DNA of 64,000 bases. Source: Spisula solida (Eukaryota > Mollusca > Bivalvia > Venerida > Mactridae). How positions within the stretch are numbered: position 1 is the first letter of the stretch; every line of letters begins with the position of its first letter. The notes beneath the pieces are model-generated. The model was not told the origin of the DNA. It ran no database searches and saw only the letters and a list, made by a program, of their open reading frames with translations. The stretch spans positions 3,596,001 through 3,660,000 of the forward strand of contig OX365948.1 in NCBI GenBank assembly GCA_947247005.1, given 5' to 3'. The position numbers and the translations under genes were made by a program. Positions 4,671-59,427 of the stretch are shown here, in pieces.

Positions 4671-5983
4671 TTACACATAATGTACTTCAGTCTACATGTA
4701 TATCCTTTCCGCTACCACGATTTTTTGGAGGGCAATGAGAAATTCATACCCCGTCCCTGAGACACTATTGACTTGCAGCACTGATAAAAACTCGATAAAT
4801 CCGGATACTTCACACCTGCCCCAAAGTGAAAGTAGAAAAATTGTCGACATTTCGACTAAAGGTCACCGGAAATGACGATGTGACGGTGAATACTTTATTT
4901 TTAGCTTCGTAGGCCTACTTTTAAGCCCCCTTAGAACACTGATCTTGACCCCTTTGTCTAGCCTTATATAGAAAAATAAAAACTTGTTGGCGCTTAATAT
5001 TAATGCAATCCCACAGGAAATCGTACCGCAATTGCGGATGGCGGGTAGGACCAGTAATTTCAGTTTTAGAAAATCTACGTCCAAAGCCCTCTTGAAAGGG
5101 GACCACAGGGCAGTGGGCCCAAAAACCTGTGCACGACCTTGGGCCCGTAATATCCTTTAGTCTGGGATGCCTGTGTACCCATGACAGCAAACTTCCCGAA
5201 TTTGGGCCTTTAGGTCGAAAACTCCGGAAGGCCGAAATGGCCATCCCGGCCAGTCTACATTAGTACGCTATGGTAGCGGAAAGGATTTATATTCGAGTGT
5301 ATTATCGCGTTTCAATTAATTCGTAAATGCACATGTTTTCAGTTTCTTACTCATGGAGTACACGCGTCAACAAAGTGCAGATCCGATCCCATCGGACCCC
5401 GTGTAGAAAGTGCACTACAATATGCATATGTCAGGTTTCTAATTGGCCCCCTCACATGCGAGAATCAACACATCGACAGAACTCACTATAACCTCAATAT
5501 CAAAGTCAACTCCCTAATGAGACCAATATAGATGAATAACGTCAGTGGTATGTCAGACTACTTCCACTGGGATGATTTAGACAAAATAAGCAGGCTCTGT
5601 GGTTGGAAAATAGACCTAGAAATATTGTCTAATTCCTCTGAGTCTATTCACCGTCAAAATATCGATAGGTACATTAATGGTATGAAATTATTCGTTACAC
5701 TCTTCGACGACGGGAGGTACCGGTCCAATCCTAGTCCGCGTCATACTTCATGAAGTAAAAAGGGAGCCACTATTCCACTTGCTTGACGTTCAGCATAAAA
5801 TTGTCAGTAATGAGGTGTCGGGGTTGGAAAACTACCAACAAAGGAAATACAGAATGCTACAAGCATAGTTCGGACAAAGACCTGCGATAGTATATTTTAA
5901 GTACGGTGATACATGTATATACGGTGATGATTAATAACAATTCTTGTACTCATGTTATACTACAAGAATGATATATTTTAATT
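4671..5983. other. Non-coding; unassigned open stretch at 5532-5753
   Basis: The 73-codon reading frame 5532-5753 has an unbiased composition and no recognisable motif. A GC-richer patch (5050-5260) contains GGCCGAAATGGCC-type palindromes that suggest an old repeat. No gene supported. Confidence 0.35.
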
Positions 5984-7424
5984 GTCTGCCTCATATTGTC
6001 TAGTACTGTTATACTGTCTGTCTCATAATGTCTGCTCCGGCTATAATGTCTGCCTCATAATGTGTGTTGCTGCTATAATGTCTGCCTCATAATGTCTAAT
6101 ACTGTTATAATGTATGCCTCATAATGTGCATTATTGTTTTATCACATAACCTGCGGTCCAGGAGTGCCGTAAAGCCGTGCCGTAAATATCGTTCGGCACT
6201 CCCAGACTGTGCAATAAATATTTAAATTAGCTTGACGTGGCGTTAGCCAATCCATGCGTTGATCCGTCAATGACGTCAGGATAATATCAACGTCGCCATG
6301 ACGTCGCGCTCTATGTACCGCTGAATTTTGGCTGAAAAATATGCAGCGCACATTTTCCTTTGAACAATAACGTGCATTTTTAAGGTTATGTGATAAATAG
6401 AATCTTACATTCGTGCTCATTACATACGAGTTTTATTAAACTCGTCGACAAAAACAATATGACACTCGGCAAAGCCTCGTGTAATATCATTTTGTCCACT
6501 CGTTTAATAAAACTCGTATGTAATGAGCACTCATGCAAGATCATATATATAATGTATGCCTCATAATGTATATTATTGGTATAATGTATGCCTCATAATG
6601 TCTATTACAGTTATAATGTATGCCTCATAATGTATATTATTGGTATAATGTATGCCTCATAATGTCTATTACAGTTATAATGTATGACTCATAATGTATA
6701 TTATTGGTATAATGTATGCCTCATAATGTCTATTATTGTTATAATGCATGCCTCATAATGTCTATTACAGTTATAATGTATGCCTCAGAGTGTCTATTAC
6801 AGTTATAATGTATGCCTCATAGTGTCTATTACAGTTATAATGTATGCCTCATAATGTCTATTACAGGTATAATGTATGCCTCATAATGTCTTTTACAGTT
6901 ATAATGTATGCCTCATAATGTCTATTACAGTTATAATTATGCCTCATAATGTCTATTACAGTTATAATGTATGCCTCATAATGTGTATTACAGTTATAAT
7001 GTATGCCTCATAATGTATATTATTGTTATAATGTATGCCTCATAATGTATATTACTGGTATAATGTATGCCTCATAATGTCTATTACAGTTATAATGTAT
7101 GCCTCATAGTGTCTATTACAGTTACAATGTATGCCTCATAATGTCTATTACAGTTATAATGTATGCCTCATAATGTCTATTACAGTTATAATGTATGCCT
7201 CATAATGTCTATTATTGTTATAATATCTGCCTCATAATGTATGTTACTGCTATAATGTCTGTGCCTATTAATGTATGTTAATGTTATAATAGCTGCTACT
7301 GCTAGAATGTCTGCCTCATAATGACTGTTGCTGCTATAATGTCTGCCTCATTATGTCTGCTACTGCTAGAATGTCTGCATCATAGTGTATGTATGCCTCA
7401 TAGTGTCTATTACTGTTATAATGT
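5984..7424. repeat. 32-bp minisatellite (TATGCCTCATAATGTCTATT...), interrupted
   Basis: A unit of 32 bp, roughly TTATAATGTATGCCTCATAA plus TGTCTATTACAG, repeats about 28 times from 6546 to 7424 and about 5 diverged times before 6138. Variants alternate TATTATTGG and TATTACAGT endings. The outer units are more diverged, as expected for an array homogenised in its centre. Confidence 0.9.
6138..6545. mobile_element. Foldback insertion inside the 32-bp array
   Basis: Two inverted structures lie side by side. The first is TTTATCACATAACC at 6138-6151 against its exact complement at 6384-6397. The second is a hairpin with about 28 perfect paired bases plus imperfect extensions (6400-6441 with 6502-6543), whose loop contains CACTCGG/CCTCGTG. 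The flanks are array units, so this inserted into the satellite. Confidence 0.75.
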
Positions 7425-7591
7425 AAAAATAAGACAAAGTGATCTTCACGACGTGAAAATATTATGGAAAACGCCGTTTGACAGGATACTGGTCGGAGTA
7501 ATTAGCGTCCTTAGGGAGCGGTAAACCCAGAATTCACAGAATTGTCTGGCCGACAAACACCTTTCACCAAAACGTCATTAGAGAAAACGTC

Positions 7592-9045
7592 ATGGTGAAA
7601 TGTAAATACTGTGGCTATAAGTCTCCAGAGATGCCAATGTCAGACACCATTCAAACACCAGCAAACAAGACAGCAGGTGCTTTAAACAGCATGTTGGTTT
7701 TACCTGTGTTAAAATCCAAAATAGGACAGGAAGATGCCAGAAATGTACTGACATGCCTAAATGTCAAGCCCCCCAGCAAACCAATACTACAAAAGAAACT
7801 TAACTGCATGGCAAACAATGCTGTAGACTTGAATGAGAAGCAAATGGTAAGCAACCAACAGTATATAGCCCGTGTGCAGCAAATAGCCGGAGCAGAGGTC
7901 CAATTTGATGTGGCTTACACCTGTCGACCACAGGGCGGATGCGAAAAGGCGGCTCAGAGCTTCGGCGCCTAATTGAACACACAACTACGAGGAAACTTCC
8001 AATCGCAATTGCTACAGCCAACAAGCACTGCAAGAAGAAGGGATGTAAGCATGTGGATTGCCAGAAGAACTTCCAGACTGAGGCATCAATTGCATCAAGT
8101 GAACGCATACTTTTGCACAGGTCACTGGAGAGCGTTGTCAATGCCGGACACTTGAGCATTATTTCTATCACTACTGACGGAGGGACGCAGTCGGCAAAAG
8201 CTATACGCGACTACTACAATGACAGACGACGACAGGCAGCCATTCATTACAAGTGCCTTGTCCACAAACTACGGGTCCTTGAAAGGAATCTAACACAACT
8301 GGATGTAAAAAGTATTCCGCGAAAACAAGACAAGCAATCCTATATGCGCAAACTTGCTTCTAGCATTCGAGTCCGAGCTCGACTCGAGCTTACGAGGATT
8401 AACAAACAATGCAAAAACGACACAGCGGAATTCCTTCGTTCAGCAAGTGCAGCGCTCGACAACATTACAAACTGCTTCTCTGGAGATCACAAGCTATGCC
8501 GACAACTCTCACAAGCATGTTGTAGCCATTTACGCATGCAGTACAATCATCTTCCATATGGCGAGCCGTTAAAACTGAGCAAAGCTGATCTTCAGACCGT
8601 ACAAGCAAAAATAGCAAAAGCCTTTGATCGGACTGGTCTGCAAGAAATATCTAAATTGTTCAACACAAACATGTGCGAGAGTTTAAATTCTACAGTGTTC
8701 AACTACGCACCCAAATCAACATGCTGGACCCGTAATTTTACCGCCCTGTGTCATTCAGCAACCCACTCGCGAACTGAAGGGCCAGGACAAGGCACCACAG
8801 AGTAGTTAGCTGCCAAATGTGGAATTCAAGTGAACAAAAACAGTGCAATGTACATAAAACTAACCGCCAAGGATAGGTTAAGACATTATGATCGCCTTCG
8901 AAAAGCCTCAGCAAATTATAAACAAGCTCGCCATTATCTACGAAAGAGAAAAATGAACAAAGCTCTTTTTAAAGACTCTCTATACAGTTCGGAGAATGTA
9001 GCTTCTGGCAGTGCTATTGAACATAACTATAGTTTAACAGTGTGA
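7592..9045 (+). pseudogene. Mutator/Kolobok-like transposase, frameshifted and interrupted
   Basis: Two open segments read as one transposase. The first (7592-7972) has an N-terminal CxxC (CKYCGY) and ends in the motif AYTCRPQGG. The second (7939-8805, next frame) carries CKKKGC, TTDGGTQSAKA, a basic HYKCLVHKLR block, CFSGDH, LPYG and NTNMCESLNS. It is then followed in the same frame, past a TAG at 8803-8805, by LAAKCGIQVN and a basic tail ending at 9045. A single frameshift lies near 7965-7970. Candidate acidic triad residues are the D of QFDVAY, the D of TTDGG and the E of MCESLN; this assignment is inference from how such transposases are built. The architecture resembles the 'Mutator-like transposase' proteins common in mollusc gene sets, usually classed with Kolobok. 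The sequence is non-functional as it stands. It converges on the nuclease ORF on the other strand. Confidence 0.75.
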
Positions 9046-9503
9046 ACATTAACAAATGAACTAAACCAATACTCAAACAACAGAAATGGAACTGGACAAA
9101 CTATGTTAATTACCGCATTCAGGTTCAGAAGACATCTCTTGTAACCCCTGTGACCTGTGCATTCACCAATTAATTGACACAATTTCCTAGCATTATTAAC
9201 AGTGGCAGACTCATATGACAGGTGATCAGGTTTAATGCAAAGCTTGTTGTGACAAACATGTGAGACATGAATTTTTGGATCAAGCCGAATAGTTGGGACG
9301 GAGAGAAAAAATGACAGCCGGTGCACAAGCAGTCGGAGCCGCTTATTATTCACGGAAAACCGGTGCACACCATAGCCATATCTATCCGTTGGACCGGTCC
9401 ATAGCAAACACTGATCTACCGGGTGACTTTTATCGGAAAGAGCCATTGACAAGTTCACAACAAGCTGGGGACAGAGCGCTTGTCGGTAAAATGCAGAGGC
9501 CAT
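9027..9503 (-). CDS. I-PpoI-type His-Me finger (HNH) zinc-bound endonuclease, intact ORF
   Basis: This 158-residue ORF starts with ATG at 9503. It shows the complete two-zinc His-Me-finger signature: C32, C84, C89 and H94 as site one, and C109, C115, H118 and C124 as site two. The catalytic histidine candidate is H82 in SHVCHN, and the metal-binding Asn candidate is N103. Spacings His-x-Cys-x4-Cys-x4-His-x8-Asn-x5-Cys are the same as those I recall for the slime-mould homing enzyme I-PpoI (H98, C100, C105, H110, N119, C125). An upstream CxxW, a YGYG turn and HR at 61-62 also fit. The last roughly 30 residues look unrelated and may be read-through. The gene is antisense to, and overlaps by 19 bp, the 3' end of the transposase pseudogene, inside the same repeat-bounded region. 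It probably cuts double-stranded DNA. Whether it serves transposition or its own spread is unknown. Confidence 0.83.
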   Translation of the reverse strand: MASAFYRQALCPQLVVNLSMALSDKSHPVDQCLLWTGPTDRYGYGVHRFSVNNKRLRLLVHRLSFFLSVPTIRLDPKIHVSHVCHNKLCIKPDHLSYESATVNNARKLCQLIGECTGHRGYKRCLLNLNAVINIVCPVPFLLFEYWFSSFVNVHTVKL

Positions 9504-9838
9504 ACTAGTCGGGGTCGACTGTTACAGCTGTAATTAGCAAAATACTGTAAAAGGTACCTTTTTCTATTTAATAAGCAGTTTTCTTAAAAACATTACCAGC
9601 TAGCAGTGCATAATTGCTTTGAGCTTACATAAAAACTCAGAAAAAAGTTCTATTAAGCCTTCATAATTTGGTAAATTTTTCCTACTTTGATTGCCTCCCT
9701 TAGTTAAATCCCTATAATTTTCATTTGAATAGACCCAGGCTCCTTAAAATCACAGATTTGTGGTCCAGTAACCCCATATTGTTAGAAAAGTACAATAACA
9801 ACCTGTTTTACTGCATGTCATAATTCACATTTTTACCT

Positions 9839-10465
9839 TAAAGGGAGCGGTAAACCCAGAATTCACAGAATTGTCTGGCCGACAAACACCTTTCACCAAA
9901 ACGTCAGTAGATTTGAAGTTAATCACACACCTGAAAAGAAATGCACACAAAACAATAGCCACAAAACAACATCTTGACACATTGAGGCACCAAGTAGTCG
10001 TTTGTTTGGGTCGCGAAAACATGTGAAAAAGACGCCAAAATTCCGTATCTTCAGCTCAGAATAAAATGGCTTATCGGATTGGTATCCATCAACAGCATAC
10101 TTGTTTGGCTTCCTTAATACATGCTTAACTCACAATTGGATCCAAAATAATAGGGTTTCCAGACCGTTTTTCCACAAATTTCATGAATGTAAACCTACCA
10201 GAGAAAATGCCGTATTTTCCGGTCCCAGAGCTAGAAAGCCTAGTTTCGCAGTTTTTCACCAGTTCTCATTCAAAACACTACAAAGGTCATAACCCTTGCA
10301 AATAATTTATTGCAAACATGTAGTTATTCAAGATTTTAACACAAAACTCACTTGGATTATTCTTACTAATGATAGAATGGTTCAGAAACACAGCCTTTGT
10401 CTTATATTTACAATTTTGACCATGGCCAATTCGAATATTTGGCTTCTCTGGGTTTACTGACTCCT
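9839..10465. mobile_element. Short non-autonomous relative of the 7.5-kb element
   Basis: About 630 bp bounded by imperfect terminal inverted repeats of about 23 bp: left AAAGGGAGCGGTAAACCCAG, right in reverse AAAGGAGTCAGTAAACCCAG. No coding potential seen inside. Similarity to the 7512 end stops abruptly about 66 bp in. Confidence 0.6.
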
Positions 10466-12218
10466 TTAGTAATCAATTGAAACGGCGCTATTTTCTGCCC
10501 ATATATGTTGTAATTTAAACGCCACGTCATATACTGTATTTAGCTTTTAATTATGTTTTGCCTATTTTGAATGAGTATATGACTTTAAGAACTTATACTG
10601 TATATAATGTTCTTGGCTTTGATAAATAAAGCCCATTTTCAACTTCAATCTGTGTCGTTTTGTATCCAATATACTAGCTTCACCAGTCACCATCACCACA
10701 AGGATTATAATTATTATTTACATCGTATTTGATCCATTTCAAGGAATAATGTAGAAAATTGTAAAAATGACAAATATATGGGTCAGTTTCTTACATATCG
10801 TACTAATTAAGGTATATTTGGGTGTATTTGGGTATATTTGGGTATTTCGTGCCGCCCGATTCAACGGTAGTTCTAACACCACAAGCATCCCCATTGTATA
10901 CACAAACACCTCTGATGAACCCTCCTTCGTCTTGAAATATTATCATATCGACGTGGATTTACAGTGTTGACATCTTAATCTTTTAGTTTTACACAGTTTG
11001 TGATGACGTAATATGGCGCTCATAATAAATAATTTTTCGTGAAGACTGGTTGATTTAGGTCACACACCACAACATCTGAGTTCTAGACGGTTGTCGAAGG
11101 CTGTAGCAGTACTCTTATCATTTTGGGGCCTTCATGATGTCAACAATATTTTAGCACAAAAGTTCCAAGGTGTGCCCAAAATACTAACTATCGATTGGCT
11201 AACCCCGTTATCGGTCGGTCCAATGAAAAGATATGTTACAATGGGACGTACACGTGCTGCCATTCTGTGATTCACTGCGGGACAGTAAAATGACGAAATG
11301 CGGAAGCGAAAATATTTTGAAATAGATGGGCTAGGTCACTTTTCACGGACCTGTGGTACAGTGTACCAATGGACACAAAAATAAAAGTACAATGTATACC
11401 AAAAAGTACATTTTTACTGTACAGAGTACAGCATTGAGAGACCTCGGAAGTTGAAACGACAAGTAGTATGCAGTCTTAGCATGTGTATGTCAACATAATA
11501 TTTAAATCATAGGACGCATCAATGTCCTTTGGTGCGCATGAGTCCGCCTGATACGACAGTCAATAAGGTGCACAACTACTTGTAAGTGCGTGTACAGTCA
11601 CATCTGTGTGCAAAAAGATAAAATTAAGTCGGACAGGGAAGGCAGCTCTAAACTTGACCAGCCAAGCACAAAAAAACAAACATTTATAAGGCACAATGCC
11701 CAACACACAATCAAACGAGAAGATTACTTTCAAGAGTACTTGCAAACAGAGACCATTTTGATAAATCATGTCTTCAGCGATCAGTACTAGTAAGCACACC
11801 TTCGGTCTGACCATTTTCAATAATACTCAAATCGTCAATAAGCCACTTGTCAAAATACCGCCGCAGTTCACGCACTGCCAACAGCACTCAGAGATAGTAA
11901 AACACTACCGTATTTCAAGAAAGCGCTAAAAACACACGGTTTTACAAAAGCTTATTCTGGCTGATTATTAGTTTGACTTCTTAAAGGTCTCCTAAAAGGT
12001 AGTACATTTATTTCTTGTAGAAGTGGTATGTGACGCTGTTCTTGAAACACTAGTACAGTAGTAAATAGTGTCTTATAAGTTGGGGGTCTCCTGTCTCCTT
12101 AAAGGAAGTATCACTATTCCTTTGGAGTCAGTACTGTTTCTTAAATGAAATAAAAGTATTATTATGTTTTAGTTACAAGTTATCTGCTGAACATTCACAT
12201 TTTATCCTTAAACTTTAA
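10466..12218. other. Non-coding with short repeats
   Basis: Contains a small tandem run of GGTATATTTGGGT-like units at 10810-10848 and a dispersed-repeat copy at about 11614-11740. The rest shows nothing I recognise. Confidence 0.4.
11614..11740 (+). repeat. Dispersed repeat, copy 1 (unknown family)
   Basis: Shares roughly 75% identity over about 120 bp with 13400-13520 (same strand) and 48060-48190 (opposite strand). The common stretch is AAAAAGATWATATTAAGYCGGACAGGGAAYGCAGC, then an ACAGAAAAACATT-like stretch, then GCACAATRCCCAACM. None of the three copies preserves a common open frame. Confidence 0.6.
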
Positions 12219-12841
12219 TATATGAGCCAGTCTCCAGGAAGACCTGCTATTTTGACAAAACATTTGATTTTGAGATTTTTTATTATCTAAAAGAGTAATC
12301 TTAATGAAGCAAAATGCAAATGAAATTTTGTTAGTATCTTGATTTTTAAGAAAGTTACAGTTGTTTTGTTGAGACCCTATTCAGACCCTTTTTGCGTGAC
12401 GTCGCAAACGTCATTCAAGCGTTATTCGACGTCTTTGTAACAAGTACTTTATACATACTGCATTTGATCAATTATTTACATCAACTGGTCAAAATGGTAT
12501 CAAGTTTTAGAATGATGTTTTAAGTTTTTAAATATACATCCAAATTGTAAATGTTCACATTTGGAGAAAGACTACTACAGTAACTGTTTTAAACAACTAT
12601 ATCCTCGTTTTTCTCAATCAGAGTACTCTTCTGAAATTGGTCACCATAGCAACGAAGTAAATGATTTCGACATAATGCATAAGACATTTTAAAGCTAAGG
12701 TTAGTAATATATGGATAAATGACTTAAAATTGAATCTATAGATATGTTTTTTTTCTTATTTGAAAGCCTTTCAAAACATTGTTACATGCAGTAATTACTT
12801 AATGTCAATATAGCAGGTTTTCCTGGAGACTAGCTCATATA
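12219..12841. mobile_element. DNA transposon remnant with 32-bp TIRs
   Basis: Left end 12219-12250 (TATATGAGCCAGTCTCCAGG...) matches the reverse complement of 12810-12841 with two mismatches in 32. TA dinucleotides border both ends. 623 bp with no surviving ORF; non-autonomous. Superfamily undetermined; the TA flanks would suit a Tc1/mariner-type mechanism. Confidence 0.8.
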
Positions 12842-14247
12842 TTTATACATTTGTTGATATATCCATGTCCAATTGTTTTAACCATGTCTTAAATGTGATT
12901 GTACAGCACTTTTGAACGTGCAATTACTGATAAAAGTGCTATATCAATACGGTATAATAATATCAATTCCCCTGGGTGATCACTATAGACAGGTTGGACG
13001 GTATTATAAATTTATTAAAGATGTTTCTTTCTGGTGACAAATGTCTGTTTTCGAGACCGACAATATCACCACTTCTAATATCTGCGTATATACTGGTGAA
13101 CATAACATTCTTGTATTTTGTTAAGGATATTTCAATCTACACTATGCACAGTTTTGCGCGTTCGTGTTTGACTTGAGATTGCTTGATAGAACATATTACA
13201 CTCAATTACATGCATGTTAGTCGTGTTGAACTCACGGAATATTGTTATCGCCTGTTTGTTCGATTTCTCTCCCTTGGTTTACACACCGTCTGGTATTATT
13301 TTACATGTTTGTTTTATCGTGGTAAACAAGGTTTTCCAACTTTCAACTTCAGCGTTTATCGCCAATACAATCTATAATGTGGCAAGTTGAAAATTTTAAC
13401 AAAAAGATAATATTAAGTCGGACATGGAACGCAGCACGGCACAGAAAACATAAACACATACAACGCACATTGCCCAACACACAACCGAACGAGAAAATGA
13501 TCCGCCAAAGTCCCAAAAAGCTAAATGATCTTGTTTCAAAAGCATATAATAAGGTTTACGCAGCTTCATTTTGTACTCGTAAAACTACGGACAGTGTACA
13601 GAGATTCATTGAGTTGGTATACGCGAGAAGAGACGAATTTTAAAGTAGATAAAAACAACAACTTGGGTGAAATGTATTTATTTGAAATGTTCATTTTGTA
13701 TGTTTGTATACTCATGGGCATAATGCCTAACGTATTGCAAAAAAAACCTGTAAACTCTAAAACTGTATATTGTTGTTTTATTGAATGTTATTTCTATTCG
13801 CAAAGGTAACTCTCTTTCTATCAAACCAAGCTGTGGCATTTCGAGTAATTTGAAAGCGAAAGCATATTTTGAAATAAGGAACTGTTGTTTCAATTGCATT
13901 TGAATGTAAAAAATTTGAGGTTGGAGAAAAAAGGTACGGAACAAAACAGTTAAAATTAACTTAAACCGCATCAAACCAGTACATAATTTATGTCATTCCA
14001 TATTTTATTTATTATATTACATAAACATTTGTAAGTTAAGAATTCAGATTATACAGTTAAATCTATAAAACACGTTAAATGATATACCGGTAATAAGGTC
14101 CCCCTATCATTTTACTCAATACAACACTCTGCCAATAGTCTCTCCCTAAAATGTTACGAAGAACACTCTACGAAGAGAAACTGTATGACCATTGTTGACT
14201 TTCTTCTGGACAACTCTACCCTAGTACTATACTTATATACAAATATC
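12842..14247. other. Non-coding apart from one dispersed repeat
   Basis: Open frames here are short and AT-driven. Nothing recognised beyond the dispersed repeat at 13400. Confidence 0.35.
13400..13520 (+). repeat. Dispersed repeat, copy 2 (unknown family)
   Basis: Same family as 11614 and 48060. It happens to sit in an 88-codon open frame (13377-13643), but that frame is not conserved in the other copies, so I do not call a gene. Confidence 0.6.
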
Positions 14248-15075: not shown

Positions 15076-15920
15076 TGTCGCTCTAGAACACCCTACCCGG
15101 ACATATAATGCACCTTGTCGCTCAAGTACACTTCACTAAGATACTGATGCTATTCTTTGCCGCTCTCGAACACTAGGCCAAACAAACCCTAATGCAATTT
15201 GTCGCCCAAGAACACTCAACAAAGAGACCCGGTATCCTACGCCATTCGTCACTCTAGAACATACTACCGAGAGACACCCTACGCCATTCGTTACTCTAGA
15301 ACACAATACCGAGAGACACCCTACGCTATTCGTTACTCTAGAACACAATACCGAGAGACACCCTACGCCATTTGTCACTCTAGAACACACTACAGAGAGA
15401 CACCCTACGCCATTTGTCACTCTAGAACACAATACCGAGAGACACCCTACGCTATTCGTTACTCTAGAACACAATACCGAGAGACACCCTACGCCATTCG
15501 TTACTCTATAACACACTACTGAGAGACACCCTACGTCATTCGTCACTCTAGAACATACTACCGAGAGACACCCTACGCCATTCGTCACTCTAGAACATAC
15601 TACTGAGAGACACCCTACGTCATTCGTCCCTCTAGAACATACTACCGAGTGACACCCTACGTCATTCGTCACTCTAGAACACACTACCGAGAGACACCCA
15701 ACGCCGTTTGTCACTCTAGAACATACTACTGAGAGACACCCTACGTCATTCGTCACTCTAGAACACACTACCGAGATACACCCTACGCCATTTGTCGCTC
15801 TAGAACACACTAACGATAGACACCCTACGCCATTCGTCACTCTAGACCACACTACCGAGAGACACCCTACGTCATTCGTCACTCTAGAACACACTAACGA
15901 TAGACACCCTACGCCATTTC
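15076..15920. repeat. 42-bp satellite array related to the 41-bp array
   Basis: After about 150 bp of transitional, degraded units, about 16 units of 42 bp run on (CACTCTAGAACACACTACCG, then AGAGACACCCTACGCCATTC, then GT). Both arrays share CTCTAGAACACNCTAC. The period is a multiple of three, so long open frames run through it on both strands (for example 15136-15894 minus). These are artefacts of the repeat. Confidence 0.93.
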
Positions 15921-36058: not shown

Positions 36059-36499
36059 CTGAAATATTGCAGAATATCGTACATATAATCACGTTACTTC
36101 TAGATCCCTATACAAAATGTACAATTATTGTAATTAAATGGTGACAATTATGTAAATATTTGCAACTGTAAATGACATACACTTGGTGATCACAACTCTT
36201 TGTCAATGCGAGTGTAATGACGTTTCTTAACTTTCTTCAGTGACATGTACAGCGACATATACACCTATCCTGGCTTTTCCTGGAATGTATCTTTACAGTA
36301 CAAACTTACCATACCAAAAGGAACCAGCAACTCATCCACATTCGGAGGAACGGTGGAAACTCGACATTGGTGATTGTAAACAATTACGGTCGCTGACTGG
36401 GAACACTTCACATAATTTATACATTTTTGATAAACACAGACACATTTCTACATTCCTGCTCTCCCTTTCATGTTATAAGTTATGCAAATAAATTCATGT

Positions 36500-37440
36500 T
36501 CATTAACTCATGTGTACAATTACACAGTGTCTTCATTAACCCATGTGTAAGCTTTCACAATATCTTCATGAACACATGTGTACAATCACACAGTATCTTC
36601 ACTAACCCATGTGTACAATCAGACAGTATCTTCACTAACCCATGTGTACAATCACACAGTATCTTCACTAACTCATGTGTACAATCACACAGTATTTTCA
36701 CTAACCCATGTGTACAATCACACAATATCTTCATTAACCAATGTGTACAATCACACAGTTTCTTCATTAACCCATGTGTACAATCACACAGTATCTTCAC
36801 TAACCCATGTGTACAATCACACAATATCTTCATTAACCAATGTGTACAATCACACAGTATCTTCACTAACCCATGTGTACAATCACACAGTACCTTCATT
36901 AACCAATGTGTACAGTCACACAGTATCTTCATGAACCCATGTGTACAATCACACAGTATCTTCACTTACCCATGTGTACAATGACACAGTATCTTCACTC
37001 ATCCATGTGTACAATCACACAGTATCTTCACTAACCCATGTGTACAATCACACAGTATCTTCACCAACCCATGTGTACAATCACACAGTATCTTCACTAA
37101 CCAATGTGTACAATCACACAGTATCTTCACTTACCCATGTGTACAATCACACAGTATCTTCACTCATCCATGTGTACAATCACACAGTATCTTCACTAAC
37201 CTATGTGTACAATCACACAGTATCTTCACTTACCCATGTGTACAATCACACAGTATCTTCACTCATCCATGTGTACAATCACACAGTATCTTCACTAACC
37301 CATGTGTACAATCACACAGTATCTTCACTAACCCATGTGTACAATCACACAGTATCTTCACTAACCCATGTGTACAATCACACAGTATCTTCACTAACCC
37401 ATGTGTACAATCACACAATATCTTCACTAACCCATATGTA
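36500..37440. repeat. 33-bp minisatellite upstream of copy C
   Basis: About 28 units of 33 bp (TGTACAATCACACAGTATCT, then TCACTAACCCATG). Because 33 is a multiple of three, long repetitive frames open on both strands (11-residue periods such as VYNHTVSSLTH); these are not genes. It lies 440 bp upstream of the copy-C signal-peptide exon, so probably within its first intron or promoter. Confidence 0.93.
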
Positions 37441-38554
37441 CGACATACCAGCAGTGACATGTACAATTAACGAGATTGTAAACATAACGCACTTACCATG
37501 TTTAAAGATAAAACTTCTATGTCAGATGTAGAAACGACGTCTGTGTTAAAGTGATCAGGCAATGCTAACATCTAGACATTTATAAGTAGATGTTTCAGGA
37601 TCTAAGTATTTCAAAATTCAAATTATAGAAATCCCCAAATCTTTCGAAGTAGTGGTTGTGCTTCGAGGAAAACCAAAACATAGCATTAACCACAAGAATG
37701 TGTTGTCATTACAATTTTGAATATCAATTGCGTAATCCTTTATTAAAATATTAAGTTTGAGTAAAAAGGTGGGTAAGTGCGGTTTAAATGACATACTTAT
37801 TTGAAAGACAACCGCAACTAAATAGTAAGTTCAATTTTTGATACAGTGTGAAATAACGGGGAATTTCCCAAGGAAAACATAATTAAATACAAATTATGTA
37901 CGTAACGTTAATTATTATAATTCAAATTAAGGGTTAAGGTATCTTTCTAATGCAAAAATGTTCATACAGTCCAGTTAGGATATTGTGAGAGTGACGTAGT
38001 CATTTATGTGTACACAAAATATTACAACCATTGTCTGAACAGGTAGAGCAAGTATAATACAAGATTACAAGTTTATTCATACTAAATTTAACATAAATTA
38101 CTAAAGATTGTTTAGCTAAAAAATGACACACGAACAAACAACATAGAAATGTAATGGTTCAATGCGAACAATAAATTTATATTCAGTATATGAATAATAG
38201 TTATATAATAATATAAATACGTTATCAAACAAAGTCACATTTTCAAATACATGTAGGCCACAAGTATGTTAGTTTAAAATTGAAATTATAGCTGACTGGA
38301 TGAACTGAAATCAGTAAACTGTTGTCTCCTGGTTTGTCTGGTTCATAAAACCGTCATAAATCAAAACGGTTCGTCGCCGATAAATTCGCCCCAACTGTAT
38401 GGGTTTTTTTACCCGAAACAGTTCAAATATTACCTGCTGGTCCGTACAAACACACCCACCAATCAAAATGAAGTCAAAATCAAGTGTAGAAAAAGTCATC
38501 GTAATATGAGCAATGTTGAATTTGAATTAAGAAATAATGAATACGTAGCTATGT
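37441..38554. other. Non-coding, nothing recognised
   Basis: AT-rich sequence without a supported gene or repeat. Confidence 0.4.
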
Positions 38555-58305: not shown

Positions 58306-59427
58306 ATGGTGGTTTTTAACTTTTCAAAATACATAGATAGAGACTTCCTAAAAACACAGTCATATGTACCACTAGTGTGGTGGAGATTTATTGACGATAT
58401 TTTCATGATATGGCCCCACAGTAGAGAGGAATTAGATTCCTTCATAATGGCCTTAAACAGTTACCATAGAACCATAAAATTCACAGTCGACATCAACGAA
58501 AAAACAGCCAACTTTTTAGACACAACTATAACAAAAGATGTCGAAGGAAATTTGACAACAACCCTGTACACAAAACCTACAGACGCGCATTTATATCTAC
58601 ATTACAGCACTTACCACCCTTTACATAAAAAAGCATCCAATACAACCAAGCAGTACGCCTACGGAGAATTTGCAGCACCAACAAATCATACAAAACATGC
58701 GCACTACAACTTCAAGAAAATCTCGAAATAAGAGGGTACCCAAAGCAACTGATATGAAAGCAGAACTACTCGACAGAATGACACTCCAAAATATCACGGA
58801 AAAAATACAGACACAAACAACCATACCACTCATTTTAACACACACCCTTTTAACATACCAACCGACAAAATCATCAGGAAATATATACACCTTCTGGAAG
58901 ATGCACCTTCTCTCGACCACTTCAAAAACGCACGCATCATAACTGTATACAGAAAATCAAGAAATCTACGCCAGTACTTCGTACAATCGAATTTGAACCA
59001 AATCTCCAGCACGAAAGGATCTCACCCATGCACCGAAAACTGCGTGGCATGCAAACACATATCCAGCAAAACCGAAATCAAATGCAACAACACAGACAAA
59101 TACTTCAAAATACACGGATCATTCACTTGCAAATCTATAAGCATAATATATGTCATCACATGTAAAAACTGCGGAATCCAATATGTTGGCCAGACAGGCA
59201 ACAGTATGAGATAATGACTTTACGGACACATGGCAGATATTAGAGCGGGAAACAACGTAAAACCCATTTCGGGGCATTTTATCAGCTGGAATAAAAACGT
59301 CAACGATATCGACGTCAGGGTCGTCGCGGCAACAGAGCGAAACGTTAACACACGACTCAGAACAGAAGAATCATTGATCATGAAATTCAGAACGAAATCA
59401 CCAAACGGACTCAATTTAATACAATGA
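58306..59427 (+). pseudogene. Penelope-like retroelement: RT palm/thumb and GIY-YIG nuclease
   Basis: 58306-58731 encodes RFIDDIFMIW (catalytic DD at residues 30-31), NFLDTTITK, LYTKPTDAHLYLHY and HPLHKK, the Penelope-type RT core. Two frameshifts follow; LEIRGYPKQLI and RKSRNLRQYFVQSNL continue the thumb. From 58993 a Cys-rich linker (C13, C17, C20) leads to IIYVITCKNC and YVGQTGNS, the GIY-YIG signature. Two adjacent stops (59212-59217) interrupt it before YGHMADIRAG, then ATERNVNTRLRTEESLIMKF carries the conserved Glu. 5'-truncated and inactive, but less decayed than the LINEs here. Confidence 0.85.

Follow-up and report, generated by a model that had tools for sequence, protein, structure and literature searches.

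An intact I-PpoI-like nuclease reading frame in a very probable decayed KolobokP transposon of the bivalve Spisula solida

KolobokP is a lineage of the Kolobok superfamily of transposons, published by Kojima and Bao in 2022, that comprises 228 families, autonomous and nonautonomous, in seven animal phyla and especially in bivalves (PMC9587614). In most of them the direct strand codes for a DDE transposase, and the complementary strand, downstream of it, for a nuclease resembling I-PpoI, the endonuclease of a Physarum group I intron; the nuclease is apparently absent from some families, two of which are named, and the authors leave decay possible as the reason (PMC9587614). The elements are bounded by long terminal direct repeats (LTDRs) of two size classes, ~450 and ~660 bp, which bear short terminal inverted repeats of their own and 5'-RR / YY-3' ends, and they make target site duplications of 3-5 bp (PMC9587614). 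The transposase is marked by a C/DxxH signature and by a CCHC finger after the first D, multimers and solo LTDRs are common, and the whole monomer in oyster measures 4,022-4,748 bp (PMC9587614). Here we describe a stretch of 64,000 nucleotides from Spisula solida (GCA_947247005.1, contig OX365948.1, positions 3,596,001 to 3,660,000 of the forward strand; henceforth the window), which very probably holds a decayed member of KolobokP that still carries an intact I-PpoI-like nuclease open reading frame (ORF; Table 1).

Table 1. Coordinates of the element, its repeats and its two genes in the window
Feature	Position	Strand	Basis or remark
KolobokP-like element as it stands: left LTDR remnant, INT, right LTDR	7514..10464	+	ends taken as GG..CC; repeat match starts at 7513
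Left LTDR remnant, first 70 bp only	7513..7582	+	one difference from 9842-9911
Apparent deletion joint (rest of left LTDR and 5' INT lost)	7583..7594	+	
Broken Kolobok/Mutator-like DDE transposase, without ~151 N-terminal residues	7592..9045	+	Pfam, relatives, motifs by eye
Transposase, D1	7907-7909	+	
Transposase, frame shift	near 7969	+	
Transposase, CCHC	8029-8061	+	
Transposase, D2	8176-8178	+	
Transposase, CxxH	8254-8265	+	
Transposase, second zinc finger	8473-8520	+	
Transposase, E	8677-8679	+	
Transposase, premature stop	8803-8805	+	
Transposase, frame end	9043-9045	+	
His-Cys box (His-Me finger) nuclease ORF, intact, 158 aa	9027..9503	-	ORF call, Pfam, PDB and fold matches
Nuclease, zinc ligands C32, C84, C89, H94 and C109, C115, H118, C124; catalytic H82, N103	within 9027..9503	-	
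Right LTDR, ~622 bp, own imperfect terminal inverted repeats	9843..10464	+	ends GG..CC (RR..YY)

The nuclease is a His-Cys box endonuclease

The nuclease frame runs without interruption from its ATG to its stop, and a Pfam search matches it to PF05551 (zf-His_Me_endon) with an E-value of 5.7e-11 and 43.2 bits, above the curated cut-off of 27 bits for that family. The zinc-binding His-Me domain that a sequence-only reading of this DNA had proposed was thus recovered by a profile. When the single protein was compared with the PDB at E up to 10, all five distinct sequences returned were I-PpoI (best 1evw, E 5.5e-4), and a nine-sequence profile (A1) likewise matched I-PpoI and nothing else at E up to 0.001 (five of five matches, best 5.7e-7). 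I-PpoI is also the best fold match of the nuclease model (Foldseek E 1.7e-3 to 2.3e-3, TM 0.35-0.40, rmsd 6.2-7.1), and a second structural alignment puts their identity at 20-24%. We conclude that the window nuclease is a His-Cys box endonuclease whose nearest solved relative, by sequence and by fold, is I-PpoI.

The residues of the active site are consistent with this assignment. Counting from the catalytic His82, a Cys at +2, a Cys at +7, a His at +12, a Glu at +16, an Asn at +21 and a Cys at +27 reproduce the spacing of I-PpoI exactly in the pairwise alignment, and the pattern H.C....C....H...E....N.....C occurs a single time across the six frames of the window, at this ORF. The second zinc loop (C109, C115, H118, C124) also has all four of its ligands. 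The nuclease has 63 relatives at E <= 0.001, the top-scoring one 65% identical over 81%, and 47 of them were aligned with the window protein to give 48 rows. Ser81, His82, Cys84, Cys89 and His94 are kept in every row, Glu98 and Asn103 in 47, Cys32 in 46, Cys109, Cys115 and His118 in 45, and Cys124 in 44. Judged from sequence, then, all eight Cys/His zinc ligands, the catalytic His and the Asn are in place, each kept in 44-48 of the 48 rows. The sequence-only reading had claimed as much, and had added that the spacing matches that of I-PpoI; this stands from His82 to +27, but C32 and the second zinc loop are spaced slightly differently from what we take to be the corresponding positions of I-PpoI.

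A broken transposase between direct repeats

The nuclease and the transposase lie tail to tail, with their 3' ends overlapping by 19 bp. A 126-aa upstream piece of the transposase (from 7592, plus strand) matches PF20700 (Mutator) in Pfam with an E-value of 2.5e-13, and a search with the 288-aa downstream piece finds a Dreissena polymorpha protein (P0064), itself a member of PF20700, with 55% identity across 95% of the query. A further relative (P0067) aligns through its last residue, at 9042, next to the codon that closes the window frame. Comparison with yet another (P0069) reveals that ~151 N-terminal residues are gone and that the frame slips at ~7969, and an in-frame premature stop comes after that. 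Because of these three lesions, the window copy is unable to make a full transposase of its own, and the juxtaposition of an open 158-aa nuclease frame and a dead transposase noticed earlier is borne out. By eye, the three catalytic acids, the CxxH, the CCHC finger and the second zinc finger persist in the broken gene, with motif labels set after the description of the lineage (PMC9587614).

Both genes lie between direct repeats of one unit, the left of which is cut down to its beginning. The sequence AAAACGTCAT stands on both sides of the deletion joint (7569-7578 and 7584-7593), and since the loss of the left LTDR continues into the transposase, one deletion may explain the loss of both most of this repeat and the start of the gene. 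The ends of the right LTDR form inverted repeats that match at 11 of the 15 outermost positions. The window copy thereby combines a Kolobok-type DDE transposase with CxxH and CCHC motifs, an antisense nuclease downstream of it, and a right LTDR with inverted GG..CC ends, the features by which we assign it with high confidence to KolobokP. To the left of the element, a 32-bp unit forms a long tandem array with interruptions (5941-7434) that stops ~80 bp short of the element.

Could the nuclease instead be an independent hitch-hiker, for instance a homing gene, that landed by chance in this single transposon copy? Such an arrival would fit an intact nuclease ORF next to a damaged transposase, in the one copy that was read as DNA. 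However, intactness argues little: two point lesions in the ~1.45 kb of transposase that remain imply, by simple arithmetic, that a 477-bp stretch escapes about half of the time, and for this reason the open nuclease frame is no proof of selection. Moreover, the antisense downstream position is the one published for most KolobokP families (PMC9587614), and among the relatives a nuclease (P0009) and a transposase (P0065), whose longest contigs both measure 4330 bases and come from one source, appear to share that contig. We therefore regard a chance arrival as very improbable. The recurrence of the partnership, which the sequence-only reading had left to a survey of further copies, is documented by the published one, with KolobokP in seven animal phyla and the same antisense arrangement in most families (PMC9587614). 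The pairing of nuclease and transposase is real, but it has been described already, in 2022.

Several points weigh against a decayed KolobokP member with an I-PpoI-like nuclease. On the side of the nuclease, Foldseek gave no I-PpoI match at E <= 0.001, and in a second structural comparison the lowest I-PpoI row (8.4) tied with the phage HNH endonuclease I-HmuI (7.7) under the rule of the tool. On the side of the transposase, the Pfam search found no match for the 288-aa downstream piece or for the relative P0065, and the equal length of 4330 bases is the only basis for placing P0065 and P0009 on one contig. As for the repeats, a full-length LTDR pair is not seen, the left one measuring only ~70 bp; the right one, at 622 bp, is under the published ~660 size class; and there is no clean target site duplication, with CTTA on the left and TTTA on the right agreeing at three of four positions. 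Finally, the window element is the sole copy read as DNA, no further copy of it having been found within the window.

A scan of viral contigs with the nuclease profile gave 18 pattern matches and three confirmed loci, at 36-40% identity. In one of the three (L002), a 156-aa ORF is HNH-like and its neighbour resembles, by eye, a single-strand binding protein. A scan of genome contigs gave eight pattern matches, none of which was confirmed, and a scan of the viral contigs with the transposase P0067 gave two, again none confirmed. One nuclease relative (P0022) is listed under a metagenome-assembled genome of Sedimenticola sp., on a contig of 4143 bases that is perhaps host DNA in a symbiont assembly.

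Possible roles of the nuclease

Kojima and Bao proposed that cleavage in or at the LTDRs provokes unequal crossover or the integration of circles (PMC9587614). In live KolobokP copies, judging from its family, the transposase would mobilise the element; the nuclease, being I-PpoI-like, would cleave a semi-palindromic sequence within an LTDR, at an LTDR end, or where the ends abut on a circular intermediate; and with the other LTDR as repair template, LTDR-INT units would then be multiplied or restored. We tentatively hold LTDR cleavage with repair-driven duplication of LTDR-INT to be the likeliest single role of the nuclease, with a helper function and selfish cargo close behind. The window copy itself would be mobile only if a sister copy supplied the transposase, because its own is truncated, frame-shifted and stopped.

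As a transposition helper, the nuclease would join the transposase in acting on the element ends, perhaps opening circular intermediates, and would not drive unequal crossover. This is possible rather than probable. I-PpoI leaves TTAA overhangs, Kolobok target duplications are TTAA, and most KolobokP families have retained the gene (PMC9587614), all of which would suit a helper; the families that apparently lack it count against one, although decay may account for the absence. Nor did a test of the element ends favour a helper. By eye, both the abutted ends and the border between INT and LTDR resemble the I-PpoI site. Scored against a 15-base I-PpoI consensus (PMC6294500), the abutted ends reach a best score of 13 over 14 constructions (seven spacer lengths with either flank), a value matched or exceeded by 221 of 1000 shuffles, so that the resemblance is not significant. 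The in-place border between INT and LTDR, scored on the same consensus, reaches 16, a value equalled or exceeded by 21 of 2908 window tiles (0.7%); this border was chosen after inspection and its score is not evidence.

Alternatively, the nuclease might be selfish cargo that persists solely through homing into empty LTDR alleles and brings no gain for transposition. I-PpoI and other His-Cys box relatives are indeed homing endonucleases of group I introns (PMC9587614), yet the common multimers and solo LTDRs fit a cleavage that provokes recombination and alters the element itself (PMC9587614), and we consider pure cargo a rather doubtful description.

Live relatives might also form extrachromosomal LTDR-INT circles that the nuclease opens or re-integrates. 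The longest contigs of the nuclease clusters fall at 1.0-1.5 kb in 15 of the 63; a second peak, of 10 clusters, lies at 4.0-4.5 kb, with another five at 3.5-4.0 kb. The second peak is about the size of one LTDR-INT unit; equally, it may reflect a whole monomer, or direct repeats collapsed into a cycle by the assembler. Because the peak overlaps the size of a whole monomer, the case for circles is weakened, and we think them unlikely.

Other features of the window and comparison with known systems

Elsewhere in the window, two tandem arrays (15136-15894 and 36427-37531) are open as long ORFs, and the bins in which they lie have a strong GC skew. A diverged direct repeat pair (11611-11724 and 13400-13498), its copies ~1.8 kb apart and 92% and 81% identical in two blocks, possibly belongs to another repeat family, and a pair of inverted repeat arms (12217-12257 and 12803-12843; 41 nt, 93% complementary, 545 nt apart) looks like a small non-autonomous transposon. 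A glycine-rich ORF on the minus strand (777-1214, 145 aa) and an ORF at 58306-58731 are both unmatched in Pfam at E up to 0.1; the latter we take to resemble a piece of a Penelope-type reverse transcriptase.

It is unusual for a cut-and-paste transposon with direct repeats like long terminal repeats to have adopted a homing endonuclease, and the partnership would have been important had it been new. As it is, the window copy adds one more broken example of KolobokP, and the call made from sequence alone was accurate.

Compared with known systems, the window nuclease differs from I-HmuI in that their alignment covers residues 9-112 of the window model and does not reach C115 in the second zinc loop. 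With I-PpoI it shares an identical spacing of the active site and first zinc site (His98 to Cys125 in I-PpoI), whereas its second zinc loop is presumably spaced otherwise, and I-PpoI sits in a group I intron while the window nuclease sits in a transposon. From the published KolobokP elements the window copy departs in its ~70-bp left LTDR, its 622-bp right LTDR (against ~450 and ~660 bp) and its broken transposase; it agrees with them in having a direct-strand transposase followed by an antisense nuclease, in the placement of both between direct terminal repeats, the short inverted RR..YY ends, the CCHC finger after the first D, and the CxxH signature (PMC9587614).
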